Source: Cliona cf. orientalis
Taxonomy: Eukaryota > Porifera > Demospongiae > Clionaida > Clionaidae
Length of the DNA: 64,000 nucleotides
Direction of reading: 5' to 3'
Assembly: GCA_963930775.1 (NCBI GenBank)
Contig: OZ005697.1
Location: 8,020,292-8,084,291, forward strand
Of this stretch, positions 362 to 38,467 are shown piece after piece (the first letter of the stretch is position 1; every line of letters begins with the position of its first letter). Made by a program: the position numbers and the translations under genes. The notes below the pieces were generated by a model. The model had not been told where the DNA came from. It was given only the letters and a program-made list of their open reading frames with translations, and made no database searches.

Positions 362-1695
362 ATGGATCGAGTGAAGAAGTTGTCACTGATGTTCACAGTG
401 CTCACCTGCATGATGGCAGAATTTTTAACAAGAGCTCAGTGCAATGGTATTATAATATTGCTTAGAAAAATTGTGGCATTGTAGTTACTTGTATTTAGAA
501 CTGGATGAGTGCTGTTACAGCTATGCCTCTGTTCCCCGCAATGAAACTTTTTGTGTTCCAAATGGAGAACAAGCCCTGCTCAACTGTGTGATTATCAACC
601 CCCATGATAATTTCAAAAATCTGACGGTGACGTGGTTTAGAAGTACCACAGAGGACATGTCAGTATGTGATGAAGTATCTGCCACTTCTGAAGAGTATGA
701 TTTTTGGTACTTCGTTTCAGGCTGTGTAGATAATTCATTATCAGTGATTAATTGCAGTCATGAGCTATATCGAGATACCTTTTTTCTAACAATCCTTAAC
801 TTCACCCAATATAAAAATGATTACTATTGGTGCCAGCTTTCCATCAATAATACACTAGTACAGCCTTCTCATCGAGCTCATTTTTCTGCTGGCAATTGTA
901 GCATTACGAATCAACCTTATTATAGATTAGCAAATTTAAGACTTAGTGAGAACAGATGTACAAAATATTTAGCTACTGAATCAGATACTGGTTTGGTAAC
1001 AACTTGTGAATTGTCTGGGACATCATCAACAAGATTGTCCACAGGAACACAGTAGGAGAGAGAAAGAATTACTTTTGCAGCCACTGAATCAGATGCTGGT
1101 GTGACAACAGCTTACAAATCACCTAGTATTACAAGATTCTCCCTAGCAACACAGCAGGAGACAGAAAGTAACAAGCATATTACTTATTACGTAGCCACTG
1201 AATCAGATGCTGAATCATCAACAAGATCGTCTTCAGTAACTCAACAGGAGAAAGAAAGTGACAGGCTAATTATTTACATAGCTGGAACCTTTAGTGCACT
1301 TCTGCTTATAGCTCTATTGGGAGTATTGGTGCTAGCACTTTCGTTTGCATCTTATGTACACCATCAAAGGAAAAAGACCAGTAAGCTGCATGGAAGTATT
1401 TATAATTATTATACTCAACAAATTAAACCTATATAATATTATTTTAACACAGAGCATCAGACTGAGTGTGGAGTCACTGCTGAGTAAGTTTGTTATCTAT
1501 AGTTATTTTGGCACACTTATCAATCCTACATAATATTATAACTATAGACTTGAAAACCAGGAATATGATGACATCAGTACAGGCAGAACTCAGTCTACAG
1601 CTACGGAGGGGGAAAACCATGTATATCAGACATTAAAGCTGAATGAAATGAATTATGAAAGTATGTATGCCAAGATTATGCCAACAAAGAAGTAG
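362..1695 (+). pseudogene. Receptor A: V-set Ig, short ITAM-like tail, in-frame stop
   Basis: The four-exon model is phase-consistent: 362-446 (signal peptide, MDRVKKLSLMFTVLTCMMAE...), 499-1380 (Ig domain, Ser/Thr stalk, membrane segment), 1453-1483 (31-nt linker) and 1548-1695 (tail). All introns are GT-AG. The Ig part has the B-strand Cys (LLNCVI), the core Trp (TVTWFR) and the F-strand YYWCQL. Codon 214 is TAG (1053-1055) where the paralogs have CAG, between the Ig domain and the membrane segment; the frame is otherwise open for 381 codons. The tail holds YDDI, VYQTL, YESM and YAKI. The gene is either a pseudogene, a source of a secreted Ig domain, or a polymorphic null allele. Long-tail gene B starts 273 bp downstream. 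Confidence 0.8.
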
Positions 1696-1968
1696 AAATT
1701 ATTGATCACAAATTTGTGCTGATAATGATTTATGCTGTAATACTTATCAAACAATAGTATTGAATAGATACAGATTCAAATGCATTCCACAGAGAGTAGT
1801 GATAAAATTATTCACAGTTTGTGAGTTGAATAAATTTTGCTACTAAAATTAGCTACACTGTGCTAGCATGGCACAGTCACACTACCTACCTTATAAGGAA
1901 GAATTGTGTAATAATATTGTATAAAAGATAAGTCTACAAGCACCTGATAGTCATCACTAGAATCTAAA
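1696..1968 (+). promoter_or_regulatory. Spacer and core promoter of gene B
   Basis: This 273-bp copy of the conserved family spacer has the TACCTACCTTATAAGGAAG block with TATAAG at 1892, 77 bp before the gene B ATG. It contains no other open frame. Confidence 0.55.
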
Positions 1969-4158
1969 ATGGATCTAGTGAAGAAGTTGTCACAGATGTT
2001 CACAGTACTCACCTGCATGATAGCAGAATTTTTAACAAGAGCTCAGTGGAATGGTATGATAATACTGCTTAGATAAATTGTGATAATAATTATGGTATTA
2101 ATTGTATTTAGAACTGGATGAGTGCTGTTACAGATATGCCTCTGTTCCCCGCAATGAAACTTTCTGTGTTCCAAATGGAGAACAAGCACTGCTCAACTGC
2201 GTCATTATCAATCCCCATGATAATTTCACAAATCTAACAGTGACTTGGTTTAGAAGTACCACAGAGGACATGTCAGAATTTGATGAAATATCTGCCACTT
2301 CTGAAGAGTACAGATTTAGTAACTTCGCTTCAGGCAGTGTAGATGAATTATCACTGATTAATTGCAGTCATGAGCTATATCGAGATACCTTTTTTCTAAC
2401 AATCCCTAACTTCACCCAATATAAAAATGGTTACTATTGGTGTCAGCTTTCCATCAATAATACATTAGTACAGCCTTCTCATCAAGCTCAATTTTCTGCT
2501 GGCAATTGTAGTACTATGAATCAACCTTAGCAAATTTAAGATTTAGTGAGAACAGATGTGCAAAATATGTAGCTACTGAATCAGATGCTGGTTTGACAAC
2601 AACTCATGAATTGTCTGGGACATCTTTTGTTGCTTCATCAACAGAATCATCAACAAGATTGTCCACAGTAACACAGCAGGAGAGAGAAAGTGACAAGCTA
2701 ATTATTTATGTAGCTAGTAGCCTCAGTGCCCTTGTACTAGTGTTTGGAGCACTGATAATAGTACTGTCTATACTTTATCTATGCAAATTTCATAACAGAG
2801 TAACAAGTAAGTCTCAATTAACCACAACATGGTGCTTCTGTTAGCCATCACATTATTATTTATTTACCTATAGCCACATCTAAACCTTATCAAGGGAATG
2901 ATTCACACAAGTAAGTTATTTATGATCAGACTCCCATAATTATTATTGATGACTTATACACAATATATTATTGTAGCACCAGAAACCATGGCCAGAGTGA
3001 TGCAAGGGCGACAACTGCTTCTTCAATTGAGGCTCAAGCTTCAGTACAAGTTACTAGATCATCTGAAGATGATGATGTTTACAGTGTTGTGAGTGATGAT
3101 TCCTTCCAGATAATCAATCATCACGTCATGCTCTACCGTATGAAGTTGCTATATTTCAAGGACAGAGTCTATCTGATGGTACCCAAACGCTACAACCCAT
3201 GACGGATTCCAAGGCATCTGCTGCTCTTCAACCCTATGATGAAGTGGATTACAGCAATCACAATCAACAGTATAGAGACAGTCAACCTTGCACCCAAATA
3301 AATGACGAACACCACACGTATGATGAGGTAAACTATGAAGCAAAAGGACAAAGCAAATCAATAGTGAGTGAGATAAAAGATAAAAAAGCAACTACTGCCT
3401 CTGAACTCTTTGATGATACAGTGTACAATGTAACACTTCATGCTAAGTCCACTAAAAACGTCAATGAAGATCACGATACGGAACTGAATGCACCAAAGAA
3501 ACAAGAGGATCAACCTACATATAAATTCGATGATGAGCATGTGTATGAGAGCGCTGATCAATTCAGCAAAGGCCAAACAGCTACACCACCAACAACCTAT
3601 GGGGATAAAGATAATAAAAGTGAAGAAGCGGATGGAACAAATTTTTATCATTCCCTAGAGCCATCAGAAAACGGGAAATTCTCCAACCCTGATAGTCACA
3701 GTATGCCCATAGATCATGAAAAAACCATTGCACAGGATAGTCAGTCAGGTTCAACCCAATATAAGTGCCAGTTTGATGACCCTATGTATGATAGCACTCC
3801 TCACCCTGGAGTGGATCCGACAGTCATTGCTAGTCCAAAGGCTGAGCTGGAAAACGATGAATTAGTTGTGCAGGGCAACCCAGGTCATCAAAGAACCATC
3901 ATGCAGGATGATACTAATAGTTTGTCAGGGGATTGTGATCCAAATCTGTATAATTGTCAGTTTGATGACCCTATGTATGATAGCAATCCCCACCCTGGAG
4001 TAGACCTGACAGTCATTGCTGATCCAAAAGTTGAATTGAAAAACGATGAATTAGCTGCACAGAGCAATCTACCAAATTACAGGGGAGATGCCGAAACTTT
4101 ACCAAGCATGTTCGATGACCCTACCTATGATGAATGTCATGTTGGACCCAATAAATAG
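1969..4158 (+). pseudogene. Receptor B: V-set Ig with long multi-tyrosine tail, two frameshifts
   Basis: Exons by homology with gene G are 1969-2053, 2112-2806, 2874-2910 (37 nt) and 2977-4158. Two 10-bp deletions relative to the paralogs break the frame. One, near 2527, turns the region after the Ig domain into an immediate TAG; the other, near 3103, removes the frame at the start of the tail exon. The Ig domain itself is intact (LLNCVI, TVTWFR, YYWCQL). The remaining tail reads open from about 3199 and keeps YDEV twice, FDDPMYD twice, FDDPTYD and FYHSLE. As written it could only give a secreted Ig fragment. The signal-peptide end has AQWN instead of AQCN. Its closest relative is gene G. Confidence 0.8.
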
Positions 4159-5287
4159 TAAAATTAAACCTCTACACTTCCTCAAAACAAGATTCATATT
4201 CTGATATTGTTTTAACAATGAATTCAGTGTTTTTAGCTGTTTTCAACACTATACCATACAGACTGTCAGTTTTATGCATAACGTTAGAGATGTGTGCATT
4301 GTAGCTAATTTTGTAAACATCTAGATCATTGCTACTGATAATCAACATTATCAAGATAAAGCATGTTACTAAACAGACTCGTATCTTACTCTACCTCCTT
4401 CAATCCGTGATACAGGTGTTGGTGGGGTTCAACAGCCAAATTGAATGCTTGATAGCTACCATAATATTATTATACACTGTATACTGTGGTAATGCATGCT
4501 ATACTATGAAATATATGTATCATGGGACCGCGTGTTGCTTTTATCCACAAATGATGTGTGTATTGCAGTTGCTAACTGTACCATGAGTAAACATACACCC
4601 AGTTGTTTGTCCATTAAAGTAGAATTTTGTAGAAGAACAGCTTGTGTTTTGTATTTTCAGTTCACAGTACGATGTGAAATTCTTATTATTAGTAACATTT
4701 TGGGCTCCTTTGCGCCTTAAATGGAAACATGGTTTGGTAATGATTGCCACACTATTGGGCATAATACTATGAACTCATGATGACATCATGATCACTGTGT
4801 TGTACTGAGCATGTGCAGTAAAGTATACCATAATGCTATACGTATCACTCTAAGGCCTATTCAATTAAATTAAATTAGCTACATTCTTATAGTAAATGTT
4901 GATCAAGTTTTCTCATAACACTGAAAGAGTTTCAATCCAGCAACGATTACCATAATATCTGTATGTAGCAATGAACATAATATTTCTTATAGATGCACAC
5001 CACTATAACTATATAGATTGAATGTGCTTTTATGCTTGAATGTTAGAATCTGATGCTTAAGATAGACTTAATTAGTTTAGTCACATGCACTATTCCCAGC
5101 AGCAAACTGCTGTACTTATAAGGGGGCAGAGGATCACTTGTAGCTTATATTATATTTATAGTGTTAGCTAATCCCAAAACGATCAATTGGCAGTAGCTAT
5201 CAAATTCAACACACATGCACAATAATTATAATATAATTATTACTATTATGCATGATTTAAGTGATACTCACTAATGCACAATATAAT
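4159..5287. repeat. Non-coding 3' flank of B, duplicated after G
   Basis: I see no credible gene in this stretch. It is collinear with 14723-15827, downstream of gene G, with small indels only, for example the shared stretches CTAAGGCCTATTCAATTAAAT and CCCAGCxGCAAACTGCTGTAC. It marks the 3' end of a segmental duplication that carries the Ig receptor pair. Confidence 0.7.
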
Positions 5288-5431
5288 AGTTAGAGACTGA
5301 GTCCAAGGTCTCTACGCCTTTTAAGAGACCCGAAGGCCCTATGCTGTAGCATCCCGAGCGAAAGCGAGGGTGCTACTAAGGGTCTGAGGGTCTCTTAAAA
5401 GCGTAGAGACCATTGGACGAGGTCTCTAACT
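5288..5431. mobile_element. Foldback element with nested hairpins
   Basis: Imperfect 45-bp inverted arms (5288-5332 and 5388-5431) share AGTTAGAGAC, GGTCTCTACGC and TTTTAAGAGACCC. They enclose a second hairpin, TAGCATCCCGAGC / GCGAGGGTGCTA, around a GAAA loop. The element sits in the first copy of the duplicated flank and is absent from the equivalent place near 15820. It is probably a small non-autonomous DNA element; a structured non-coding RNA is the alternative. Confidence 0.65.
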
Positions 5432-5596
5432 GATTTAGAATATAGCAACTGTAACGGTGGTAGTTGACCAGAGGACTAGGCTACTGTTGCACTGTGCATC
5501 TTTCTTTGCCCTTGGCTATACTTGTAGGTCTCTATGAGAGACCTCTGAGTGTCCAATCAGATCACAGTATTTGTTACAACTATAATATTATTCTAA

Positions 5597-6788
5597 GTAC
5601 AACTAGGGGAGGTCTACATGAATATCAGCTGGCTGTGTTATATTAATACACCACCTAATAACATGAATGTTTCTGTCCAATGGTACAAAGCTAGACCAGG
5701 GACTGCAGAATCTGATATTATGACAGAGAGAGAACTACTCTCGGAGTTAAGCAGCAAGTATAGCTTTACTATCGATCGACAGGTATTAGCTGTTAATAAC
5801 CACAGTGAATTAAATTTTGGGATCAGTTTGTGCTTACAATTCACAATTTCAACAGCAGCACTGACGATGGCTATTACTGGTGTCAAATCGTAGCCAATGG
5901 GACTTGTCCACTTGAGCCATCACCCACTGGGTACCTACCTGGCTCTCGACCAATTCCCAGTGGAGAAGTGTCCATACAATCTAGTATTCAATTTCATTCG
6001 GATCCTGTAGTGCCACCGATCTGTGCAGAAGGGATGTTATGCCATGCAGAAGAGCAGACTACTCCTACTCTAGCAAGCGATGAAAGAGTCAATAACCATA
6101 CTAGTTCTGAGTCAATATTAATCACATCAATAACAGTCACTGTGATACTGTACGGCATCATTAATTGAAGGGTTATTATATTCTGCCTACTGATCATTGT
6201 GGCTTGTACTGTGTGCAATGTTAGAAGTCATAAGATGAACAAAGCCATCAAAGGTAAATAATTACAGAAATCCACTTCTACTTAGACAAAATTAATACTA
6301 TAACTTTTCAGCAAATAAAGATAAGCACTACACTGGACCCTCACTCAATGTTTATAACGATCAGCCAACTAAATCTGACAATGACGCAATAGAAATGGAT
6401 GCACCTGGAGGAACAAAGTTTAAAGGTAGCCTAAGCTGAGCAATAGGTTAGAATGTATCATTCATTTTTAATTGATTTCCCAATAGATAGATCGGTTCAG
6501 AAACAACTACTTCTTCCTCCCAGCAATAATGCCACTCAAGCAATACAAGAGCCAGCAACGCCAACTGTGCACGTGTTGACTTCAAGCGATGATGAAGTCA
6601 AGTATGCTAAACCAGGGGCTGTGTGTCAGCCTCCTGTGAACCCACGGGAGGTTTCAACACATTCTGAGCCAATCTTATCAAGGCCTCAGAGCAAGTGGAG
6701 TGAATATAATATCAGCCTACCATATACGCCAAATAGGTATAGTGGAGGAGTCAAGGCAGATCCAATGTATGCCAATCTACCAATGTGA
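5597..6788 (+). pseudogene. Receptor C: divergent Ig receptor, broken
   Basis: An Ig V-like domain is read in two frames. The first has C-Y-I-N-T and VSVQWYK from about 5602; the second has LTIHNF and DDGYYWCQI from 5830. A single missing G in the GGG run near 5819 explains the shift. A membrane segment follows but is interrupted by an in-frame TGA near 6166, after ILYGIIN and before RVIIFCLLIIV. Downstream exons 6312-6425 and 6487-6788 join in phase and encode a tail with VYNDQ, KYAKP, YNISL, YTPN, YSGG and a C-terminal DPMYANLPM, which resembles the DPMY motif of the long tails. I found no convincing signal-peptide exon. It is probably a pseudogene, though each lesion is a single base and should be checked against reads. 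Confidence 0.6.
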
Positions 6789-7186
6789 AGATTGAGCCCC
6801 TTAGTACAGTAACTGCATGGACAAGTATTTTGACAAACATATTTGTACATAGCAAACACCAGATAAAACTATGAACAGTATTGAATACTCCAAGGAAACA
6901 CCATAATAATTATTATGTAGATCACTGCAGTAGGGTAGAATCAGTGCTATAAGATTCTCAGTATAGGCAGTATTGTTTGTATTGCTGCACTTTCAATGTA
7001 ACAATATTCTCATTATTACTAAAGAATACATGACATCGTATGTGATATCACACATTTACTCAAAGAATGCAAACTTATTCCTCAACACATGGACAATAAT
7101 AGTCAGAAATAATAGTGTTACAATAGTTATTTGGTTTGAATTCAGCTAACAGAGAGTGAAAATCAACGGAGATTAAATAAGACTCA
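6789..7186. other. Intergenic, nothing recognised
   Basis: This AT-rich spacer between C and D has no family promoter block and no coding frame that I can support. Confidence 0.5.
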
Positions 7187-8285
7187 ATGTCTCCGCTATT
7201 TGTGGTGCTCTTTTTGGTCCAACTACTATACACAGCTCACTGCAATGGTATAATAATATTACTGTGATCATGTTGAACCTTTATTATCATAGACTCCATT
7301 TTAGATGAATGCTGTTACATTTATGGCTCTGTTCCATATAACAACACTATCTGTGTTCCTGAAGAAAGTGCACTTATTTTAAATTGCATCATCTATAATC
7401 CGCGTGAGAACTTTACAAATTTTACAGTGACTTGGTACAGAAGTACTACAGGAGGTAGACTAAGACATGAACCATTATCGGATAGTTTAGAAGAGTACCA
7501 GTATAGAGCATATCACTCGTTAACACAGTCAGTTATGCTGACAAATTGTAGTCTGAACATCTATAGGGATGTTTATAGCATAGTAATACATAACTTTACC
7601 AAAGAGAAGAATGGTTACTATTGGTGCCAGCTTGCTATCAATAATACTAACACACAGCCTTCATACCGTGCTTGGCTCTATTCTGATCAGACCTGTGATA
7701 ATTCCATATACCCGTACTTCAGGCTAGGATCTTTGAATGAAATTCAGTGCGCTCAATATGTCTCAAAGACATTTCCAGAACCGTTAACGACTCCAACATC
7801 AGTAACAACATTATCGATAAGTTCACGGATAATAGGAACTACGCTTTCAAGCAATGAATCGCTCATTCGTGTTCTTGGAAGCTTTAGTACACTTCTGCTT
7901 GTAGCGCTATTGGGGGTATTGGCACTAGCAACATCGTTTGTATTTTATGTCCACCATCTAAGAAAAAGACCAGTAAGTTGCATACCATGAGCACTTATGA
8001 TAATATACCCAAAAAATTTAATACATAACATCAGCATGGAACCACCCCTGAGTAAGTTGATTTCGTTACCTTTGACATATCCAGTATTATGGGCGCATAT
8101 TATATTTAGTCCATTATCAACTCTTCATTAAATTTCATATTAGGATTGAAACCCAGGACTATGATGACATTTGTGCGAGGAGAGCTATAGCTATTGAGGA
8201 AGAAAATCATGTATATCAGACATTAAAGCTGAATGAAATGAATTACGAAAGTATGTATTCCAAAATTACGCCAACAAAGAAGTAG
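7187..8285 (+). CDS. Receptor D: intact V-set Ig receptor, short ITAM-like tail (295 aa)
   Basis: The exons are 7187-7247, 7305-7972, 8035-8051 (17 nt) and 8144-8285; all GT-AG, and together they make 296 codons with no internal stop. Residues 1-20 form a signal peptide (MSPLFVVLFLVQLLYTAHCN). The Ig domain has C48, W64 and C128 in KNGYYWCQL, plus extra cysteines (C23, C24, C37, C102) and several N-x-S/T sites. A short Ser/Thr stalk precedes the membrane segment (about 208-233), followed by HHLRKRP. The tail has Y255 (YDDI), Y273 (YQTL), Y283 (YESM) and Y287 (YSKI). YQTL-x10-YSKI fits a relaxed ITAM spacing, and SMYSKI fits the ITIM pattern. This is the most divergent of the Ig copies. Its exon 2 end is one base shorter than in A and F, and the 17-nt linker compensates, so selection kept the frame. 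Confidence 0.8.
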
Positions 8286-8634
8286 AACTTAATCAAACCG
8301 ACTGCACAAACTTGTGCTAATACTGACTTATTAATTGCATGATACTATTGAGTATAATATTATTCAGATTCATTATATTATGTAAGTCCACACAGAGTAA
8401 ATCAAGAGTTATATTATGACAAACAGCTATTATAAGATTCTATGAACAGAATAATAAATTCAGTCACAACAGCATCTACTAAATTATAAACACTGTGCAT
8501 GCTTGGGACTGCTATACATAATTTTAATGTACAGTTTTTATAAATACCCTACCTCATAAGGACCATTGTGTGGGTGAAGGCACAATAATGTGTTACGTAT
8601 TAGGATCTAGTATTGCTGTCATAAGGATTCAAAA
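8286..8634 (+). promoter_or_regulatory. Spacer and promoter of gene E
   Basis: This is a diverged form of the family spacer. It has TATAAATA at 8539, 96 bp before the gene E ATG, followed by CTACCTCATAAGGACC, a decayed copy of the conserved TACCTACCTTATAAGG block. Confidence 0.45.
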
Positions 8635-10711
8635 ATGAAAAAGCTGTCACTGATGTTTATAGCATTCATCTGGATAGCACAAGTTCTGACAAGAGCTCAG
8701 TGCAATGGTACAATATAAACTTCTAAGAAAAAAAATTAAAGCAATAATAATAACATTATAATAACTAGAGCTCTATAGAGCACATACCCCGCGCGCACAG
8801 TGCGCAATCTATAGGTCTGCTTTTGTTGTTGCTTGGTTGCATCAAGGACTTATAGACCCCATAAGCCCCTGGTTGTACAATATAGGGCTCTTGGTGATAT
8901 CAGCAAAAACATCATTGAATCTCTCTCTGCACCAGATCTAGACTAGGTAGATATAGGTATCTTACATTCTGATTCGATGGGGCTTTGCATTCCAGTCCGC
9001 CAAACGTGTGCCACTAGCATTATCGACGACCTTTACCATCCATAATTATTCAATGCTATGCGCATGAGCAGAAAGCACAAGGCCTGTATGCATAATGCAG
9101 TGAGTGGGCACTGTCGATAGGCGTGGTTACGCTCGTGGACCATATCCCTCGATTCGAGGCACACTGAAGCTCGTTTTTCGCCAAATGCGACTGATTCATT
9201 GTGCTTATTAGTCGCTCAGGTGCCTAGACCTCGAGATATGGCGATTTTTGTGCTAACAACGACAACAACGACAACTAGAGCTCTATAGAGCACATACCCC
9301 GCGCGCTGCAGTGTCGACGACCTTTACCTACATATTGTGCCAGGTTGTGCGCATGAGCAGAAAGCACATGGTGGGTAGTGTCCATAGGCGTGGCCAACAA
9401 AATGCCAAAATGCAGCATTTTGCGATGCTTGTGGACCTTGCCAAACGATTCGAAGCATAATGAAGCCAGTTTTTCGACGATATCGACGTATATACTATAC
9501 TTACGAGTCGCTCAGATGCCTAGATCTCCAGATCCGGCGATTTTTGTGCTAACAACAGACACAACCGATCACTTTACCCCTTGCGCATGCGCGCGGGGTA
9601 CGATTACATTACCCCCTTGCGCATGCGCGCGGGGTAATTACTATGGTGTTAACTGGATCATTGCTGTTACAGCTATGCCTCTGTTCCTCGCAATGATACC
9701 TTCTGTGTCCCAGAGGGAGAACAAGTGACTCTTAGCTGTGTCATCATCAATCCCCATGATATTTTTACAAATCTAACATTGACTTGGTTTAGAAGTACCA
9801 CGGAGGATATGTCAATATTTGATGAAATACCTGCCACTTCTGAAGAGTACAGATTTAGTAATTTCATTTCAGGCAGTGTACATAATTCATTATAAGTGAT
9901 TAATTGCAGTCATGAGCTTTATAGAGATACCTTTTTACTGACAATCCTTCGCTTCACCCGACATAAAAATGGTTACTAATGGTGCCAGCTTTCCATCAAT
10001 AATACACTAGTACAGCCTTCTCATCAAGTTCAATTTTCTGCTGGTAATTGTAGCGCTAGCATTACAAATTATTATAGGTTAGCAAATTTAAGACTTAGTG
10101 AAAACAGACGTGCAAAATATGTGGCCACTGAATCAGATGTTGATTTGACAACAGCTTACAAACCACCTGGTATTACAAGACTCTCCCTAGCAACACAGCA
10201 GGAGACAGAAAGTAACAAGCCAATTACTTATTATGTAGCTACTGAATCAAATGCTGAATCATCCACAAGATTGTCTTCAGTAACTCAACAGGAGAAAGAA
10301 AGAGACAGGCTAATTACTTACATAGCTGGAACCTTTAGTGCACTTCTGCTTATAGCTCTATTGGGAGTATTGGCGCTAGCACTTTCGTTTGCATCTATGT
10401 ACACTACCAAAGAAAAAGACCAGTAAGTTGAAGTATTCATAATTATTATACCCAATATATTAAACCCACTTTAACACAGAACATCATTGTGGAGTCACTG
10501 CCGAGTAAGTTTGTTACCTATAGTATTTTTGGCACACTTATCAACCCTACACATTATATATAGACTTGAAAACCAGGAATATGATGATATCAGTACAGGC
10601 AGAACTCAGTATACAGCTACGGAGGGGGAAGGCCATGTATATCAGACATTAAAGCTGAATGAAATGAATTATGAAAGTATGTATGCCAAGATTATGCCAA
10701 CAAAGAAGTAG
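8635..10711 (+). pseudogene. Receptor E: Ig receptor broken by repeat insertion and stops
   Basis: The signal-peptide exon 8635-8707 (MKKLSLMFIAFIWIAQVL...) is intact. Intron 1 has grown to about 950 bp by a repeat insertion, and the TTTAG acceptor found in the other genes is lost (GTGTTAACTGG). The Ig exon has at least two nonsense changes: TCA to TAA near 9893, and TAT to TAA inside the YYWC motif near 9978. The later stalk repeats, membrane segment (TYIAGTFSALLLIALLG) and tail exon ending at 10711 (YDDI, YQTL, YESM, YAKI) are well kept. The gene is clearly non-functional as a full receptor. Confidence 0.85.
8763..9640. mobile_element. Composite GC-rich inverted-repeat element in intron 1 of E
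   Basis: Two diverged direct copies begin at 8763 and 9273 with ACTAGAGCTCTATAGAGCAC and ACATACCCCGCGCGC. Each carries TCGACGACCTTTACC, GCGCATGAGCAGAAAGCAC and GGCGATTTTTGTGCTAACAAC. The right end has two copies of TTGCGCATGCGCGCGGGGTA (9581-9600 and 9617-9636), which are inverted relative to TACCCCGCGCGC at 8785. A short frame in it looks like chance. I read it as a non-autonomous DNA element with a duplicated body; a relative may lie near 33240 (GACGACCTTTTACC). Confidence 0.65.
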
Positions 10712-11006
10712 AAATTGATCACAAATTTGCTGCTAATAACCTAATAATGATTTATGCTGTAATACTTATCAAATAATTGAGTATTGAATAGAAGTTCAGA
10801 TTCAAATGTTTCCACAGAGTGTAGTGATAACAGTTTGTGAGCTGATAATATTATTTTTGGTACTAAAATTAGCTAAATTACAAACATTGTGCTAGCATGG
10901 CACAGTCACGCTACCTACCTTATAAGGAAGAATTCTGTATGAGGGTGTAATAATAATATTGTATAGAAGATGGGTCTACAAGCATCAGCCATCACTAGAA
11001 TCGAAA
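10712..11006 (+). promoter_or_regulatory. Spacer and core promoter of gene F
   Basis: This copy of the conserved spacer has TATAAG at 10921, 86 bp before the gene F ATG, preceded by CACAGTCACGCTACCTACC. Confidence 0.6.
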
Positions 11007-12155
11007 ATGGATCTAGTGAAGAAGTTGTCACTGATGTTCACAGTGCTCACCTGCATGATGGCAGAATTTTTAACAAGAGCTCAGTGCAATGGTATATAAT
11101 AGCTTAGATAAAATTGTGGTAAAAATTATGGTGTTACTTGTATTTAGAACTGGATGAGTGCTGTTACAGCTATGCCTCTGTTCCCCGCAATGAAACTTTC
11201 TGTGTTCCAAATGGAGAGCAAGCACAGCTCAGCTGCTTCATTATCAATCCCCATAATAATTTCACAAACCTAACGGTGACTTGGTTTAGAAGTACCACAG
11301 AGGACATGTCAGTATTTGATGAAATACCTGTCACTTCTGAAGAGTATGAATTTAGTCCGTTCATTTCAGGCAGAGTAGATAATTCATTATCAGTGATTAA
11401 TTGCAGTCATGAGCTATATCGAGATACCTTTTTTCTAACAATCCCTAACTTCACCCAACATAAAAATGGTTACTATTGGTGCCAGCTTTCCATCAATAAT
11501 ACATTAGTACAGCCTTTTCATCAAGCTCATTTTTCTGCTGGTAATTGTAGTATTATGAATCAACCTTATTATAGGTTAGCAAATTTAAGACTCAATGAGA
11601 ACAGATGTGCAAATTATTTAGATACTGAATCAGATACTGGTTTGACAACAACTCATAAATTGTCTGAGACATCTTTAGTTGCTTTGTCAACAGAATCATC
11701 AACAAGATCGTCTTCAGTAACTCAACAGGAGAAAGAAAGTGATAGGCTAATTATTTATATAGCTGGAACCTTTAGTGCACTTCTGCTTATAGCTCTATTG
11801 GGATTGTTGGTGCTAGCACTTTCGTTTGCATCTTATGTACACCATCAAAGGAAAAAGACCAGTAAGCTGCATGGAAGTATTCTACTCAATAAAGTAAATC
11901 TATTTTAACACAGAGCATCAGACTGAGTGTGGAGTTACTGCTGAGTAAGTTCGTTACCTATAGTTATTTTTGGCACACTTATCAACCCTACACATTATAA
12001 TTAGACTTGAAAACCAGGAATATGATGACATCAGTACAGGCAGAACTCAGTCTACAGCTACGGAGGGGGAAGGCCATGTATATCAGACATTAAAGCTGAA
12101 TGAAATGAACTATGAAAGTATGTACACTAAGATTATGCCAACAAAGACTCAGTAG
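11007..12155 (+). CDS. Receptor F: intact V-set Ig receptor, short ITAM-like tail (326 aa)
   Basis: The exons are 11007-11091, 11148-11861, 11914-11944 (31 nt) and 12005-12155. All are GT-AG, with phases 1, 1, 2, giving 327 codons including the stop. The order is signal peptide (MDLVKKLSLMFTVLTCMMAE), V-set Ig (LSCFII, TVTWFR, NGYYWCQL) with N-glycosylation sites, a Thr/Ser stalk, a membrane segment (about 229-255, IAGTFSALLLIALLGLL) and a basic stop-transfer. Tail tyrosines are Y283 (YDDI), Y303 (YQTL), Y313 (YESM) and Y317 (YTKI). YQTL-x10-YTKI matches an extended ITAM spacing, and SMYTKI matches S/I/V/L-x-Y-x-x-I/L/V. SH2-kinase or phosphatase recruitment is inferred from motif alone. This is the intact counterpart of A, and it lies 254 bp upstream of long-tail gene G. 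Confidence 0.85.
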
Positions 12156-12409
12156 AAATTGATCACAAATAATTGAGTATTGAATAGATTCTGATTTAAA
12201 TGCATTCCACAGAGAGAAGTGATAAAACTATTCACATTTTGTGAGTTGAATGATAAATTTTGCAACTAAAATTAGTGAAATTATAAACATTGTGCTAGCA
12301 TTGCACAGTCACGCTACCTACCTTATAAGGAAGTATTGTGCATGAGGGTATAATAATAATATTGTATAGAAGATGAGTCTACAAGCATCAGCCATCACTA
12401 GAATTGAAA
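12156..12409 (+). promoter_or_regulatory. Spacer and core promoter of gene G
   Basis: This conserved family spacer has CTACCTACCTTATAAGGAAG with TATAAG at 12324, 86 bp before the ATG, the same distance as for gene F. Confidence 0.6.
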
Positions 12410-14722
12410 ATGGATCTAGTGAAGACATTGCTACCGATGTTCACAGTGCTCTCCTGCATGATGGCAGAATTTTTAACAAGAGCTCAGTGCAATGGTATAT
12501 AATATTGCTTAGATAAAACTGTGGTAATAATTATGGTGTTACTTGCATTTAGAACTGGATGAGTGCTGTTATAGCTATGCCTCTGTTCCCCGCAATGAAA
12601 CTTTCTGTGTTCCAAATGGAGAGCAAGCACAGCTCAGCTGCTTCATTATCAATCCCCATGACAATTTCACAAATCTAACGGTGATGTGGTTTAGAAGTAC
12701 CGCAGAGGACATGTCAGTATTTGATGAAATACCTGCCACTTCTGAAGAGTACAGATTTAGTAACTTCGTTTCAGACAGTGCAGATAATTCATTATCACTG
12801 ATTAATTGCAGTCATGAGCTATATAGAGATACCCTTTTTCTAACAGTCCTTAACTTCACCCAGCATAAAAATGGTTACTATTGGTGCCAGCTTTCCATCA
12901 ATAATACACTAGTACAGCCTTCTCATCAAGCTCATTTTTCTGCTGGCAATTGTAGCATTATGAATCAAACTTATTATAGGTTGGCAAGTGTAAGACTTAG
13001 TGAGAATAGATGTGCAAAATATGTAGCTACTGAATCAGATACTGGTTTGATAACAACTCATGAATCGTCTGGGACATCTTTTGTTGCTTCGATTTCGTCA
13101 ACAGAATCATCAACAAGATTGTCCACAGTAACACAGCAGAAGAGAGAAAGTGACAAGCCAATTACTTATGCAGCCACTGAATCAGATGCTGGTTCAACAA
13201 CAAGATCGTCCTCAGTAACACAGCAGGAGAAAGGAAGTGACAAGTCAATTATTTATGTAGCTGGTAGCCTCAGTGCCCTTGTGATGGTATTTGGAGCATT
13301 GATAATAGTACTATCTATACTTTATCTATGCAAATTTCGTAGAGTAACAAGTAAGTCTCAATTAATCATCCACAGCACGGTGCTTCTATTAGCCATCATA
13401 ACTTTATTTACCTATAGCCACATCAAAACCTTATCAAAGGAATGATGCACCCAAGTAAGTTCATGTTATTGTTTATGATCAGACTACCATAATTATAATT
13501 AATGAATTGTATACAATACTATTGTAGCATCAGAAACCATGGCCAGAGTGATGCAAGGGTGACAACTGCTTCTTCAACTGAGGCTCAAGCTTCAGTACAA
13601 GTTACTAGATCATCTGAAGATGATGATGTTTACAGTGTTGTGAGTGACGATTCCTTTGACTCCCACCCAGATAATCAATCATCACAATGTCATGCTCTAC
13701 CGTATGAAATTGCTGTATTTCAAGGACAGAGTCTACCTGACAGTACCCAAACGCTACAACCCATGACGGATTCCAAGGCAGCTGCTCTTCAACCCTATGA
13801 TGAAGTGGATTACAGCAATCACAATCAGCAGTATAGAGACAGTCAAATCTGCACCCAAATAAGTGACGAACACCACATGTATGATGAGGTAAACTACGAA
13901 GTAAAAGGACAAAGCAAATCAATAGTGAATGAGATAAAAGATAAAAAAGCAACTACTGCCTCTGAACTCTTTGATGATATAGTGTACAATGTAACACTTC
14001 ATGCTAAGTCCACTAAAAATGTCGATGAAGATCATGACACTGAACTGAATGCACCAAAGAAACAAAAAGATCAACCTACATGTAAATTCGATGATGAGCA
14101 TGTGTATGAGAGTGCTGATCAATTCAGCAAAGGCCAAACAGCTACACCACTAACAACCAATGGAGATAAAGATAATAAAAGTGGAGAAGCGGATGGAACA
14201 AATTTTTATCATTCCCTAGAGCCATCAGAAAATGGGATATTCTCCAACCCTGACAGTCACAGTATGCTCATAGGTCATGAAAAAACGATCGTGCAGGATA
14301 GTCAGTCAGGTCCAACCCAATATAAGTGCCAGTTTGATGATCCTATGTATGATAGCACTCCTCACCCTGGAGCGGATCTGACAGTCATTGCTAATCCAAA
14401 GGCTGGGTTGGAAAACGATGAATCAGTTGTGCAGGGCAACCCAGGTCATCAAAAAACCATCATGCAGGATGATACTAATAGTTTGTCAGGGGATTGTGAT
14501 CCAAATCTGTACAATTGTCAGTTCGATGACCCTATGTATGATAGCAATCCCCACCCTGGAGTAGACCTGACAGTCACTGCTAATCCAAAAGTTGAATTGA
14601 AAAACGATGAACTAGTTATGCAGGAAAATCTATCAAGTTACAGGGGAGATGCTGAAACTTTACCAAGCATGTTTGATGATCCTACCTATAGTGAATGTCA
14701 TGTTGGACCCAATAAACAGTAA
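12410..14722 (+). CDS. Receptor G: intact V-set Ig receptor, long multi-tyrosine tail (704 aa)
   Basis: The exons are 12410-12494, 12553-13350, 13418-13454 (37 nt) and 13528-14722. All are GT-AG and phase-consistent, giving 705 codons with the stop. Residues 1-27 are the signal peptide. The Ig domain has C58, W74 and C140 in GYYWC. The Ser/Thr stalk (about 165-260) contains two copies of a TESD...VTQQ unit. The membrane segment is at about 262-289. The tail of about 415 residues is acidic, polar and probably disordered. It has DVYSVV, YEIA, YDEV twice, YEVK, FDDIVYNVTL, FDDEHVY, NFYHSLE, FDDPMYD twice and FDDPTY near the C-terminus. YDEV is a known Nck-type SH2 target in other proteins; DPxY resembles NPxY, but its partner is unknown. 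B is its broken duplicate. Confidence 0.85.
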
Positions 14723-15827
14723 AATTAAACCTTTACACTTCCTCAAAACACGATTCATATTCTGATTGTTTTAACAATGAATTCAGTGTCTTTAGCTGTT
14801 TTCAACACTATACCATACAGACTGTCAGTTTTATGCATAACGTTAGAGATGTGTGCATTGTAATTTTGTAAACATCTAGATCATTGCTACTGATAATCAA
14901 CCGTTATCAAGATAAAGCATGTTTCTAAACAGACTCGTATCTCGCTCTACCTCCTTCAATCCATGATACAGGTGTTGGTGGGGTTCAACAGCCAAATTGA
15001 ATGCTTGATAGCTACCATATTATATACTGTATACAGTGATAATGCATGCTATACTATGAAATATATCATGGGATCGCGTGTTGCTTCGATCCACAAGCGA
15101 TGTGTGTATTGCAGTTGCTAACTGTACCATGAGTATACCTACACCCAGTTGTTTGTCCATTAAAGTAGAATTTTGCAGAAGAACAGCTTATGTTTTGTAT
15201 TTTCGGTTACGATGTGAAATTCTTATTATGAACAATATTTTGGGCTCCGTTGTGCCTTAAATGGAAACATGGTTTGGTAATGATTGCCACACTATTGGGC
15301 ATATGAACTCATATATATATTGAGGCAGCTGTATTATCATGATGACATCATGATCCGCACTGTGTTGTACTGAGCATGTGCAGTAAAGTATACCATAATG
15401 CTATACGTATCACTCTAAGGCCTATTCAATTAAATAGTTAGCTACATTCTTACAGTAAATGTTGATCAAGCTTTCTCATAACACTGAAAGTGTTTCAATC
15501 CAGTAACGATTACCATAATATCTACATGTACTAATGAACATAATATTCTTATAGATGCACACCACTAGTATAGATTGAATGTGCTTTTGTGATGCTTAAG
15601 ACAGACTTAATTAGTTTAGTCACATGCACTATTCCCAGCGGCAAACTGCTGTACTTATAAGGGGGCAGAGGATCACTTGTAGCTATCATATAATGTAAAC
15701 AATTTTTAATCCCAAAAAGATCAATCATTGACGGTATCAAATTTAATACACATGCACAACATATAATATTATTATTGTTATTATGCATTCAGATTTAAGT
15801 GATAGTCACTGATGCACGATGTACAAC
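14723..15827. repeat. Non-coding 3' flank of G, duplicate of 4159-5287
   Basis: I see no gene here. It is collinear with the flank of gene B over about 1.1 kb. Small indels include a 25-bp insertion near 15310 and loss of the foldback element. Just after it, GTACAACTAGGGGAGGTCTG (15828) matches the start of the gene C Ig exon at 5597, so a remnant of gene C lies at this place before gene H. Confidence 0.7.
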
Positions 15828-16200
15828 TAGGGGAGGTCTGCAGTTGACTCTCCATCCCACGGGAAATTCTCCCCAGTGCACTTGTGCAATTCACAGTACG
15901 TACTACTAGCTACTCTCTCGATGTGTTGATGCACTCACTTGGTTATTCCCAACGAGGCACCACTCAGCAGATGCTGTGAGTTTTCCACAGCAGACTAACC
16001 GATTAGTAGACTGTACAGAGAATATTGATAAAACATCGCACAGTCTGAGTACATGATTTTATCAGTGGTATAATGCTACATTTATACAGTGTTTCTGCAA
16101 TAACACCATTTACACAGATAGAAGGTGTTGGGAGCTGATCTTATGTAACAAACTTGTAACAGTCAATTATTAATAGATCATAATATTTAACATGATTACT
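15828..16200. other. Intergenic; short remnant of gene C start
   Basis: Only the first 20 bases resemble gene C. The rest shows no open frame or repeat that I can support. Confidence 0.4.
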
Positions 16201-16363
16201 GTTTATAGTGAAAACTTCACAGCTATGGATTTCTGCACGACTGGTTACGATATCCACAATCTGTTCCACGTTGCATGAGGTCCCGGAGAAACTCGTAGCT
16301 ATAGGATCCTTCACTAGTAGAATTAGCTTTCGGACATCAAAGATAAGATTAATTTCAAGAGCT

Positions 16364-17815
16364 ATGGTGTCAATCCAGACCATGAATGACACAATCGCTA
16401 GTGATAATATGAAGCTGTGTAGTGGGTTCGATACCTGCATTTTGGGCATCATAGGAGGAGTTGGAGGCTTGATACTTATTATAATATTGGTGGTCGTTGT
16501 CACAGTAATGATAATAGTTGTGTACAAGAAGAAGAAAAAAGCAAGAAGTAAGTTTCATTTTAAAGACGTCTTTGGTGATGTACAATTTCATGCTATTTGT
16601 ACTTCATTTCTATAGATGAGCAGAAAAAAGCAGAACCTAAAACCCTCAAGTGAGTTACATAATATTATACCTTAGGTTTGTAAATAGTTTTATGATATAT
16701 ACCTACAATCTTTATACTGGTGTAGAATTTCAGGGCCTATTACCAACCCGAGTGCCTTGAACCAGCCTAGTGACTCATACATAAGAGACCATGGAATCGA
16801 ACAATCATCCCACAATTATGCATCACTACATCTAGCACCATCGGGCACTGGCTATGCAGCAGACCTAGAGAAAGGAGGGAGATACATAGTGAAGGTAGCT
16901 AACCAAGACCCAATTAACAACTATGCAGAGATTAACGATCCTGAGCAAGGGACACATCTCGTACCAACTCACGGATACGATGTACCAAAGCCTCAAAGCA
17001 AAGCGGCACTTAAGCCTCCCTCAAGTGACATGTGGGGCCCAGTACAGAGCTATGAAAAACCGGAGAATGTTGTTCCAGGCCCGGTATATTATAACAGTCC
17101 TCACTCCAAGATTCAAGATAGCAAGCATCTGAGTAGAATTGAGGATACCAGTGATGAATATGTTCACCCACATCTACTTAGGAGGGCTAACTGTGATGCC
17201 GTCAATGTACCAGTCATTTCAAGTCGAAACGTGGATGCTGTCAATGTACCAGTCATTTCAAGTCGAAAAGTGAGCAATGAATCGACGACATCGTCGTCCA
17301 CTCTTCCACTACCAAGAGAGAGACACTCATCGAAAGCAGCAGCTATGAGCACCCATGGAAGCCACGGCTGTTTGCAGAAATTACCACATCAGCAACAACA
17401 GAATTTTCCTAGCTATGAAAATGTCGACCAAGATGGCTTAGCAATTGGTCAAGCACCACCGATTCTTAATCCTGTTGATGGGGCTGTAGCTACAAAACCA
17501 AAGCCAGTGCCTCCTATCAAAATGGCGCTCAAGAAGCCTGCAATTCCATCAAAGCTCTTCAAACCAACAGTAGAATTGAAGCCAGTACAAGACGCTAACA
17601 GTAAAGAGAGAAAGCGCAGAATTGAGCCCCTTACACCCATGGGTACTGAAAAGAAGAGCACAGCGCTATATGATAAACCCAAATCAGCAAGATCACAGAC
17701 ATGGACGTTGGATAATAAAATTAATGTGAATCGAAAGCTAACCAGAGCAAGCAATTACACTCCTATAGATCCTACAAAGATGGATCCAGATAATGACTAT
17801 GAACATGCACTGTAA
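16364..17815 (+). CDS. Receptor H: short ectodomain, multi-YxxP signalling tail (about 435 aa)
   Basis: The exons are 16364-16547, 16616-16649 (34 nt) and 16726-17815, GT-AG and in phase (436 codons). The frame is open upstream to 16208, where TTTATAG could be an acceptor, so an upstream exon may be missing from the model. The ectodomain is short (KLCSGFDTC), then a membrane segment (GIIGGVGGLILIIILVVVVTV) and YKKKKKARS. The tail has NYASL, NYAEI, four YxxP sites (YDVP, YEKP, YVHP, YDKP), YENV, YTPI and a KPKPVPPIK proline stretch. YxxP is the known Crk-family SH2 ligand and YxN the Grb2 SH2 ligand, so this looks like a docking scaffold; partners are inference. DAVNVPVISSR is repeated twice (around 17196-17270). 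AATAAA overlaps the stop (17814). Confidence 0.65.
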
Positions 17816-17819
17816 TAAA

Positions 17820-18120
17820 AACATTAGAATTATTCAGTTTTGTGTTTTGTACTTGAACACACATAGTAACTCCCACTGAGCTACTTTATAAACCATACTG
17901 TATTGTGTACTAGCCACCACTTACAACTTTTGGGAATAAAATTTTCGTACGGAAGAGCAAACTGTTGATAAGAGTTAGTAGGCTCGGTATCTGACCATAC
18001 TTAGCTGATCAATACATTGTAATAACAATAACTATAGCAAGTGATCTAGAAGGTAGCTTCAATAGGTGGCTAAAGATTAGCTATATCTTTGTGGCTATTA
18101 GTAGCACAGTTACTCAGTCA
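17820..18120. other. Intergenic, nothing recognised
   Basis: This AT-rich stretch precedes gene I. The last 30 bases (from 18091) are nearly identical to those before gene J and could belong to the exon, with an upstream acceptor. Confidence 0.4.
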
Positions 18121-18722
18121 ATGGCAGAAACTCCTATATGCAAGTATTTCACCAGCAGATTCAACTCAACTCATGGTCCAGATGACTGTGCCATAGGAGT
18201 CTTTGCTGCTGGTGGAGCACTAATAGTCATAGCCTGTATTCTCATGTGTGTTGCAATATTATGTTGTGGCTGTTGCAAGCGACAAAGAAAGCAGAAGGGT
18301 GACAAAAGACGAACAAAGCCACTAATCACCACACAAGCAGCATCATGGTTCACAAACAGCCTAAACAGTAATGATTATAATAACAATGGTATTAATAATT
18401 GCTATTGAATGATGAATACTCCATAACATTAGAATCCTTGAATAAACAACTTGCAAATACGCAGGTCCCAAGCAAACAGAATGACTACCCTGACCTTCCC
18501 ACCAGGTAAGTTATTCTCTAACCACATGCTCAATGTTGTTGATGTTGTTGTTACTCGTAACACAGAGAATCTTCATCTGATAAGGAGCTAAACAAAAAGA
18601 CGAAATCAAAACCAAAGATAGAAGAAGGTGGTCGAGGACATGTGTACCAAACATTGCACCTTGACGAGATGGACTATGAAAGCATGTATACCCATACCGT
18701 TCCAAAGAAACAAATAAAATAA
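18121..18722 (+). CDS. Receptor I: short two-cysteine ectodomain, short ITAM-like tail
   Basis: The first exon starts MAETPICKYFTSRFNSTHG and continues through PDDC into a membrane segment (AIGVFAAGGALIVIACILM) followed by CCGCCKRQRK. A middle exon, 18464-18504 (VPSKQNDYPDLPT), and the last exon, 18566-18722, join in phase 0/2 and give a tail ending GHVYQTL...YESMYTH. That tail is homologous to those of A, D, E and F, though the last motif is YTHT rather than YxKI. I could not find a phase-0 donor for the first exon; the GTAAG donor of gene J is lost here. The gene may therefore be damaged or use an unmodelled junction. No Ig domain is visible upstream. Confidence 0.5.
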
Positions 18723-19043
18723 GGCACTGTTGAATAGGAGTTTTGACTATAATATTATATATATCTGTAGTAATTCTGTAGAGTGATCAATTATTATTGT
18801 TAGATCTACAGATAAGATTCATAATAATAATATCACTTTCAGTCTGATCATGCACTGGGAATTGATTATTATTTGGGAAAAAGGATCACATGAGCTGCTG
18901 TTAAGGCCTATACGGCCCGGTAGGTTACAATGTTTGTGCAAAATATACCAGGGGTTATATGCTGTTCATAATTCTTTCAGCACATCAACTGCATGGTGTA
19001 GCTAATCTTATGCGTGGCTATTAGTAGCACTATTACTCAGTCA
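18723..19043 (+). other. Spacer between I and J
   Basis: This spacer of about 320 bp is of similar length to those between A-B and F-G, but its sequence is not related and it lacks the TATAAGG block. No promoter element can be named with confidence. Confidence 0.35.
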
Positions 19044-20582
19044 ATGGCAGAAACTCCTATATGCAAGTATTTCACCAGCAGATTCAACTCAACTCATGGT
19101 CCAGATGATTGTGCCATAGGGGTCTTTGCTGCTGGTGGAGCACTGGTAGTCATAGCCTGTACTCTCATGTGCATAGCTATACTATGCTCCCGTTGTAAGA
19201 GAAGAAGAGGCCGGAGAAGAAAGAGTAAGCCATTTACTGCTAGAGTCAGACCAACAAAATGGATTTTAACACTTACACGCTTGATTTAACAGGGATAGCA
19301 CATGATAGAGAAACAAGTGAAAACATTAGGTAAGTATAAATAAAATGGTATATTAATTGGTAGCTAAGTGATTCTAGCTTGGCCCTATGCTACTAGAATG
19401 ACCAGCATAAGGAGCACTGATGGTGAAAATGAAGTCAGTACTCCTAATGAGAGGGAAAGGAAGACTCAGAACCACAAATCTGTGACTCAGACCAAAGGCA
19501 AAAAGCAAGCCCCTGTCAAAAAGGACAAGAAACAGGACTGTTCCTTGGACAGGACGGCAAGCGAGGGTGGTAGTGGGAGAGTAAATATTACCTACAAGCG
19601 AGCACAGAATCAAGAAAATAGGTCATCAAATAAACGTACTTCTGATATGTATCGTAGTGCATCCTACTCAGTCGTAGGTGGAGTTCAGAAAGAAAAGGAA
19701 ATCAAAAGATTACCTGCTGTTCCTGGTAGAGCAAGCAATGCTGGGGACAAACACGATTATGACAAAGTGAAAGGTGCAGACAGTGAGAAGCCTCACAAGT
19801 ACGCCAACATTGAACTGAGTGAAGATGCGTCGGCAACCAAGGGCATCATGGAGCCCAAGTACGACAAAGTGGACGAGAGTACGAAAAGGGGTCGCAAGAC
19901 GGACAAGGCCACCGGACAAAAGGGCAAGTCCAAAGGAGCCAAGGACGATCATGAACACTTTTATCACACTCTAGAGGTCGAGGAAGAGGAAGAGAATGGT
20001 AGAGACGGGGACGAAGAGTACAGCTCACCAAAAAGGAGAGCACTGGTTGTGAGTAAAGTGACGGTGCACAGTAAAACAGGAAGGGGACAGGTAGTGAGCA
20101 CAGAAGAGACTGCCACGGTTAAGGAAACTAAGATGGGGAGAGCAAAGTCGTACTCGGAGAAGAAGTCGTCAAAAAAGGGTGGAAAGAAAAACGATCACGA
20201 TTATGAGGAACCGAGTCACAACACCCTACCACACCAGTCGAAGAATAATAAGGAGAGTACAATGCAAAAGGGTAACCTAGCTGCTGTGTTTGACGATCCA
20301 ATGTACATCGCTTCCATGGGTACGTCTGGAGGGGCTGGTGCTAACAAGACAACCCCCCAACCACCCCCAAGAGAGTCGAGCCCTAAGCGAGGAAGTGTCG
20401 AAATGCCGCAGGCCACTCCTCCAGTCACCCTACGCAAGACTGAGCCAGCCAAACAGTCCAAAGAGGACCCCAATTACGATGAACCAAACGAGAAAAAGCC
20501 GGGTGCACTGTCCAAGAAAGAGATATACAGTTCAAAGCTTTTCGACGATCCCAAGTATGAAGGAGGGTTTCCTCTCGACTAG
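19044..20582 (+). CDS. Receptor J: short two-cysteine ectodomain, long multi-tyrosine tail
   Basis: Exon 1 is 19044-19224. Its ectodomain and membrane segment are almost identical to gene I (MAETPICKYFTSRFNSTHG...). It ends at the donor AAGA|GTAAGC, phase 1. The frame stays open if a 22-nt linker exon, 19309-19330, joins to 19397-20582; the longer acceptor at 19293 would give a stop, so this junction is tentative. The tail of about 395 residues is basic to acidic and polar, with YDKV twice, KYANIEL, HFYHTLE, YEEP, FDDPMY, NYDEP, FDDPKYE and proline motifs LPAVPGR and TPQPPPRE. FYHTLE and the FDDPxY elements occur in the same order as in G, so the long tail is shared with an Ig receptor. AATAAA lies at 20643. 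Confidence 0.65.
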
Positions 20583-31642: not shown

Positions 31643-31984
31643 GTCAGTAGGTACGTTCCTCGATGGAGTGTCTTTCTATAGCTGTGCTGATCTCCTGGCT
31701 ATAGCTGTGTACTGAGCCTGCTTTTCGGCGATCTTTGGTGCATGCAGTTTCGTTCTCTTCTCTGCGCATCAACAAGATGGGCGTGTCATCAATTGATATT
31801 CATAACGGAAGCTGATCTGGTGTTGTGGGAGCGGTTTGAGCTGGAGTGGGTGGGGCTTGTACTCGTGAGTCGCGCGCATGCGTATTCGCAAGGGTATCAT
31901 CACGCATGCGCAATTTATAGCAACCGAGTTATGGATTTTGTGATTGCAATCAGAGTTCTTATCATGCCTTGATACTGCTGACAT

Positions 31985-35844: not shown

Positions 35845-35900
35845 GAGCAGCTATATAAGCAGAGCAGTTAAACAGCATTTCATCACAGAATTTCAAACAC
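35845..35900 (+). promoter_or_regulatory. Core promoter of DEG/ENaC gene 1
   Basis: ATTTGAGCAGCTATATAAGC and AGAGCAGTT, with TATATAA at 35852, lie 85 bp before the ATG. The same block (ATTTGAGCAGTTATAAAAGC, AGAGCAGTT) precedes the second copy at 38312, which supports it as a functional duplicated TATA promoter. Confidence 0.65.
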
Positions 35901-35936
35901 ATTTCAACCCGTGAAAAAAGAAATCATCAACAGAAT

Positions 35937-38345: not shown

Positions 38346-38467
38346 GTATTATATCAAGTTCATCGCAAAATTTCATCCACGTTTCAGAAGAAATCATCGA
38401 GTGTGCATTGTATATGGTGTGCAAAGCAACTCTTGCAGAATAAATATTCAATAAGGAAAACTTGAGT

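Follow-up and report, generated by a model that had tools for sequence, protein, structure and literature searches.

Receptor genes of the window and of the wider array

We analyzed a 64,000-nucleotide stretch of the genome of the sponge Cliona cf. orientalis (hereafter the window; C9:8020292-8084291, where C9 is contig OZ005697.1 of an assembly of 216.8 Mb in 149 contigs), which contains a series of genes, A to J, for predicted transmembrane (TM) proteins, most of them receptors with an immunoglobulin (Ig) domain (Table 1). A short tail (HVYQTL..YESMY) and a long tail (FYH[ST]LE, FDDPMY, and FDDPxY) recur on the ectodomains of these genes, and we found that ectodomains and tails have been exchanged as independent modules, both here and in related database sequences. 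The intron-rich genes of the stretch are in keeping with an animal genome. Gene models were obtained by joining reading frames at GT/AG splice sites; the last join of J, to its tail exon, was read by eye.

Table 1. Receptor genes at the start of the window (window positions). Where exons of a short-tail or long-tail gene are listed, the last one encodes the tail.
Gene	Product	Span	Strand	Exons
A	Ig receptor, short tail	362..1695	+	362-446, 499-1380, 1453-1483, 1548-1695
B	Ig receptor, long tail	1969..4158	+	1969-2053, 2112-2806, 2874-2910, 2977-4158
C	Divergent Ig receptor, third (C-type) tail	5597..6788	+	frame broken
D	Ig receptor, short tail, open	7305..8285	+	7305-7972, 8035-8051, 8144-8285
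E	Ig receptor relic, short tail	9656..10711	+	10564-10711 (tail)
F	Intact Ig receptor, short tail	11007..12155	+	11007-11091, 11148-11861, 11914-11944, 12005-12155
G	Intact Ig receptor, long tail	12410..14722	+	12410-12494, 12553-13350, 13418-13454, 13528-14722
H	TM protein, Tyr-containing tail unlike the short and long tails	16196..17815	+	joins not fixed
I	Short non-Ig ectodomain plus TM, short tail	18121..18722	+	18121-18367, 18433-18505, 18566-18722
J	Same short ectodomain plus TM as I, long tail	19044..20582	+	19044-19224, 19293-19329, 19397-20582

F, G, and A (with its stop codon) share one structure, in which a signal-peptide exon, an exon for ectodomain and TM segment, a small exon, and a tail exon are joined in phases 1, 1, and 2. 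I and J likewise show phases 1 and 2 downstream of the TM exon, and no separate signal-peptide exon was found for either in the modelled loci; a likely signal-peptide exon of D ends at 7247 (by eye; start not fixed). A, B, C, and E are disrupted, which an earlier note on this DNA had not seen. The stalk of A is interrupted by an in-frame TAG (1053-1055); B has two frameshifts, one where about 10 nt are missing near 2529 (compared with A, by eye) and a second near 3106; and E has two in-frame TAA codons within the Ig domain and no identified signal-peptide exon.

The same note had placed this cluster within 20 kb; its genes do lie on one strand, but the array is much longer. All 12 matches of a whole-genome search with the short tail (12 of 12 candidates scored) fell in C9:7.977-8.040 Mb, and 26 of the 33 matches of an Ig search (E<=1) fell in C9:7.953-8.034 Mb, every one of these 26 on the plus strand. 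Assembled without conflict from overlapping loci, the array spans approximately C9:7.9556-8.0409 Mb, at least 85 kb, of which about 65 kb lie upstream of the window. It comprises 24 Ig units plus H, I, and J, in a list that omits small fragments at 7953574, 7978265, and 8001189. Ig start and TM segment lie in one frame in 14 of the 24 units (C was counted in despite its disrupted TM), and the C-type tail occurs on four units. A class C G-protein-coupled receptor gene (Pfam 7tm_3, ANF_receptor) lies within the array at C9:7995510 (L082:611-2758).

Three tandem Ig-type receptors form a second locus at C19:4299480-4309550 (L076, L084). The first was matched in the Ig search (E=0.0019), the second is the best V-set match, and the third is Ig-like by eye; tails of this locus contain EHFYHTLE followed by LFDDPRY, HYYHVLE, and IYNTLD with LFDDPEY. 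At C9:3535694-3538809 (minus strand), a YYHSLE pattern (3537108, same strand) lies between two weak matches to Ig (E 5.8e-5 and 0.004) and may mark a third locus.

The Ig domain appears to be of the V type, with Pfam V-set scores that straddle the curated cut-off of 26 (27.6 in D, 23.9 in F). The family is widespread, with at least 50 matches over the cut-off among the best 150 of 272 candidates in the genome; three of these are cluster units (c05, c20, and D) and one lies at C19:4.30 Mb. In the Ig alignment the Trp is present in 47 of 47 rows, the F-strand Cys in 47 of 49, and the B-strand Cys in 31 of the 43 rows with a residue there. The B-strand Cys is replaced in the other 12 rows, by Tyr in 10 of them, and unit c08 (C9:7971350) lacks both canonical cysteines.

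Short and long tails

The short tail is indeed common to the Ig receptors A, D, E, and F and the non-Ig protein I, as had been proposed. Over approximately 50 residues, the D, E, F, and I tails are 40-96% identical to that of A, with 18 invariant columns, and a consensus of the A, E, and F tails matched the I tail in a whole-genome search (E=1.8e-5). Aligned in two pieces, the tails of B and G show 89-91% identity. The relation of J to B and G proved narrower than the single shared tail of the earlier note. The ordered motif triple of J ([FY]YH[ST]LE, FDDPxY, FDDPxY) arose in 0 of 200,000 composition shuffles of J, and chance was rejected as the source of this order. A B/G-type profile matched J significantly over 44 columns only, around HFYH[ST]LE (probability 77%, p 2e-5), compared with a probability of 0.2% for the H tail as a control and 1.8% for the J tail against the short-tail profile. 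As judged from these alignments, J shares with B and G an order or grammar of motifs, not homology of the whole tail.

The B/G-type profile also aligned with a C19 tail over 123 columns that include both motifs (60% probability; H control 0.1%), and J aligned with a C19 tail over 20 columns (72% probability). When the J tail was used as a protein query across the genome, J itself was the sole match (1 of 3 candidates). In the sequence database, 14 of 3234 candidates are relatives of the J tail, with which they align at 49-90% identity, and H[FY]YH[ST]LE, FDDP[MT]Y, and FDDP[KQ]Y are present in all 15 aligned rows.

Further Ig receptors were collected with the ectodomain and TM segment of F, which gave 52 database matches among 2199 candidates. 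Forty of these could be classed by TM type, 23 as short (S) and 17 as long (L), P0018 less cleanly; two of the 40 derive from genes of the window, and the same genome encodes at least two others. Three J-tail relatives (P0062, P0066, and P0067) are on contigs equal in size to contigs of Ig relatives (344,158, 563,537, and 318,572 bp), and the 318,572-bp size recurs for both a short-TM (P0051) and a long-TM (P0044) Ig protein. Equal size is not proof of identity, but it suggests that Ig and J-type genes are linked elsewhere too. No relatives of P0001 were found in the viral contigs scanned. By eye, the long tail of P0004 combines a B/G-type first part with a second part like that of unit c10, so that the tails themselves look modular.

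The tail blocks that the earlier note had proposed as search targets were matched in this genome in both the C9 cluster and C19:4.30 Mb. FDDPxY gave 38 matches compared with 22 for the reversed pattern; 14 of the 38 lie in the C9 cluster and two at C19:4.30 Mb. Seventeen of the remaining 22 were inspected: 12 are in frames of <100 codons; by eye, the near-identical L003 and L004, as well as L006, belong to long frames of different kinds; and L030 and L032 occur in tyrosine-containing frames and could be further tails. FDDPxY was therefore rejected as a stand-alone marker. The [FY]YH pattern gave 74 matches against 34, eight of them in the C9 cluster and one at C19:4.30 Mb.

Exchange of ectodomains and tails

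That ectodomain and tail have been recombined as units, as first suggested from the sequence of the window, was borne out by DNA identity profiles, by conflict between trees, and, in a few pairs, by synonymous divergence. In pairwise profiles (60-column windows), short-tail and long-tail genes are mostly 0.8-0.98 identical over the 5' flank, signal peptide, intron 1, Ig domain, and stalk, apart from parts of the 5' flank (0.6-0.8) and lower values at stalk-length gaps. From the TM segment onward identity between the classes falls to 0.3-0.5, which is background, whereas pairs of the same class stay mostly at 0.7-1.0 across TM and tail.

An ectodomain tree was built from 49 rows, comprising 15 own units and 34 of the 40 classed database proteins. 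P0008 and P0030 (window-encoded), P0020 (whose sequence resembles that of own unit c20), and P0047, P0053, and P0055 (little Ig) were left out, and P0034, whose Ig region is identical to that of own unit c14, was kept. Tail class requires 14 changes on this tree, compared with a mean of 16.5 after shuffling, and 72 of 500 shuffles were as low; thus, class is not clustered on the ectodomain tree beyond chance. Well supported branches require at least five of the changes, and a single clade of the short class was rejected by the approximately unbiased (AU) test (p=0.0006). On the own-genome tree (14 rows) class changes four times, 136 of 500 shuffles gave no more changes than this, and one clade was rejected at p=0.0002. 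By contrast, the TM tree (45 rows, 39 columns) has one class change with support of 100/100; its database rows were excised with class-specific templates, which makes it a control rather than independent proof. The class of own units c06, c07, c08, and c17 was taken from their tails, and they do not appear in the TM tree. On the ectodomain tree the neighbors F (short) and G (long) group as sisters (95/84), as do P0018 (S) and P0023 (L) (96/92), whose contigs are equal in size (6,793 bp).

Synonymous divergence (dS) points the same way in a few pairs. Ectodomain dS among A, B, F, and G is 0.085-0.158 irrespective of class. The long-tail unit c15 differs from B and G by dS of 0.34 and 0.43 in the Ig domain and of 0.07 and 0.10 in the tail (last 216-221 codons), a contrast that is significant in both pairs (Fisher p 9.9e-5 and 1.7e-5), and the A-E pair shows 0.33 versus 0.04 (p 0.012).

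I and J repeat the pattern on another ectodomain. Their ectodomain and TM segments are 84% identical over 62 residues (dS 0.36, and nonsynonymous divergence, dN, 0.045 over 50 codons), and their tails are of opposite class. As modelled, both start with MAETP (start codon predicted) and have about 25 extracellular residues before the TM segment, which is followed by a strongly basic region. A basic flank of a TM segment marks the cytoplasmic side (the positive-inside rule), and the I and J tails are therefore predicted to lie inside. I and J may be common signalling or adaptor-like chains.

Elsewhere the window contains two tandem ASC/ENaC-type channel genes at 35859-37295 and 38444-39823 (plus strand; Pfam PF00858), a sulfatase-family open reading frame at 60319-61254 (plus; PF00884), a Pfam L_HMGIC_fpl match of an LHFPL-type membrane protein at 31220-31675 (minus), putative LINE-type and Ty3-type retroelement polyprotein frames, recognized by eye, at 41296-44091 (plus) and 61668-63998 (minus), respectively, and a 1277-codon open frame at 54665-58495 (plus) with no Pfam match at E<=0.001.

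Signalling and comparison with known receptor systems

Signalling motifs were scanned in the tails of F, D, I, G, and J. The Ig short tails F and D have four tyrosines each, all in YxxPhi motifs (0.72-0.85 expected), and the last forms a hexapeptide of the immunoreceptor tyrosine-based inhibitory motif (ITIM) type; SMY[AST]KI fits the ITIM pattern [SIVL]xYxx[ILV] in A, D, E, and F. The I tail has three tyrosines, two of them in YxxPhi motifs. The long tails G and J contain no canonical ITIM, immunoreceptor tyrosine-based switch motif (ITSM), immunoreceptor tyrosine-based activation motif (ITAM), or NPxY. FDDPxY also falls outside the PTB/LDLR-type consensus [FY]xNPx[YF], as given in the available part of PMC6912373, since it has Asp for Asn, and in several tails of the cluster FDDP is replaced by FDDE or FDDG; a PTB-adaptor reading of this motif is a lead only. 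Domain searches of the genome gave 103 SH2 and 6 PTB matches, including SH2, SH2, and Y_phosphatase in a row at C8:9936138-9938107; SH2 effectors are thus available. Thirteen SH2 matches lie within approximately 250 kb at C7:1892335-2143698 (10 occupy open frames 377-428 codons long) and form a tandem SH2 gene array, and C15:7.85-8.29 Mb holds a dense array of tyrosine-phosphatase domains among the matches listed.

We consider it probable that this locus is a tandem array that exchanges ectodomain and TM-tail blocks independently and that its products act as paired receptors. In a birth-and-death array of receptors with a single V-type Ig domain, recombination or gene conversion would swap an ectodomain block (from the 5' flank through signal peptide and Ig domain to the stalk) independently of a TM-plus-tail block, the two meeting within exon 2 where the stalk borders the TM segment. 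The outcome is seen in the sequence: binding domains of a single family sit on two tails or more. One range of ligands could then feed two tyrosine-based outputs. The short tail may recruit SH2 proteins, for example the product of the apparent SH2-SH2-phosphatase gene, and the long tail may serve as a scaffold with several tyrosines (YH[ST]L, YDEV, and FDDPxY). That the short tail restrains and the long tail activates or drives uptake is a guess, held with somewhat less than even confidence as to sign.

Near-identical ectodomains on different tails, and ectodomain similarity kept by exchange between classes (14 changes versus one; conflicting dS in 3 of 18 pairs), are features that this locus shares with paired receptors; an ITIM receptor with an ITAM or charged-TM partner was not seen among the five tails and 13 clean TM segments. 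Paired signalling, which the earlier note had raised, fits the architecture; opposite outputs of the two tails are only a possibility. Several results weigh against our interpretation. The ITIM hexapeptide is absent from I; canonical ITAM, ITSM, and NPxY number 0 in the five tails; and none of the 13 clean units has a charged TM residue. The ectodomain tree fails to resolve 25 of its 46 inner branches, and the class of the database rows is their TM type, not the tail itself. Fifteen of the 18 Ig-versus-tail dS comparisons were not significant, Bonferroni correction leaves the two c15 pairs, and the conflict rests on disrupted units (c15, B, A, and E), so that the exchanges may predate their decay. 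Ten of the 24 Ig units lack Ig and TM in one frame, which indicates that much of the array is decaying. Finally, pooled Ig pN/pS (nonsynonymous to synonymous differences) is 0.5, with 36 of 36 pairs <1, and gives no gene-wide sign of diversifying selection.

This decay, the pN/pS value, and the lack of a motif pair of opposite sign would also be expected under neutral concerted evolution, in which unequal crossing-over or conversion homogenized the 5' halves that could still be aligned and the tails merely differ, with no functional pairing. We regard this account as unlikely, though it is the best of the alternatives: both TM classes recur in the database, I and J again have one tail per class on an unrelated ectodomain, the J motifs are conserved, and tail dN/dS is 0.16-0.68 for the short and 0.41-0.59 for the long class. 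An allorecognition or histocompatibility complex with homophilic, polymorphic ectodomains, by analogy with Hydractinia Alr, would be in keeping with tandem Ig TM genes, tyrosine tails, pseudogenes, and a mean column entropy of the Ig domain that peaks at residues 49-84; gene-wide pN/pS below 1 (in one haplotype) speaks against it, and we hold it improbable. A single old split of short and long genes with no later exchange is highly improbable and was rejected, unless the trees are artefactual, since it needs each class to be one ectodomain clade, contrary to both AU tests, and does not fit the low Ig dS between classes, even though the first TM residues are alike in both types (IIY.A...SAL, by eye) and may derive from one ancestral TM.

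Paired-receptor function remains the best explanation that the architecture suggests. It is conceivable, if somewhat doubtful, that paired-receptor logic in an early lineage and the ectodomain-poor I and J with both tail classes represent a primitive tail-swapping system that also served adaptor-like chains. To our knowledge, paired immune receptors are known mainly from vertebrates. If matched ectodomains on two conserved tyrosine tails are kept in a sponge or in another animal of comparably early origin, such a design must have arisen much earlier or by convergence, and F/G, I/J, and the Ig and J-type relatives on database contigs provide a concrete gene set for testing this.

Among sponges, the available parts of a review (PMC11999971) and of a Halichondria study (PMC8242945) describe adhesion molecules and Ig-plus-TIR receptors, and mention no array of tandem Ig receptors whose tyrosine tails can be interchanged. 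Searches on sponge Ig, allorecognition, and ITIM, on sponge gene clusters, and on Porifera Ig-superfamily tails gave no description of such a locus in the accessible texts, subscription literature lying mostly outside the search. As far as the accessible text of PMC11876637 goes, the Hydractinia Alr complex is comparable as a cluster of about 40 Alr and Alr-like genes, some of them potential pseudogenes, in an early animal; allorecognition, polymorphism, and homophily are features of Alr. Close parallels appear in the parts of PMC2832619 and PMC5701461 available to us, which describe mammalian receptors with similar ectodomains on different tails kept by conversion. Siglec-11 and Siglec-16 are neighboring genes whose ectodomain exons are homogenized by conversion and whose tails differ, and one partner is often a nonfunctional allele in humans; there, the activating partner pairs with an adaptor (PMC5701461). 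Here, by comparison, the 13 clean units lack a charged TM residue, and either tail has sufficient length for signalling of its own. CEACAM1 and CEACAM3 (PMC2832619), compared by description, pair ITIM/ITSM with ITAM or ITAM-like tails, unlike the ITIM-type/YxxPhi array and the long tail without canonical motifs found here, but they match this locus in having Ig-V-like ectodomains on two cis-encoded tyrosine tails, conversion and recombination, and gene birth and death.

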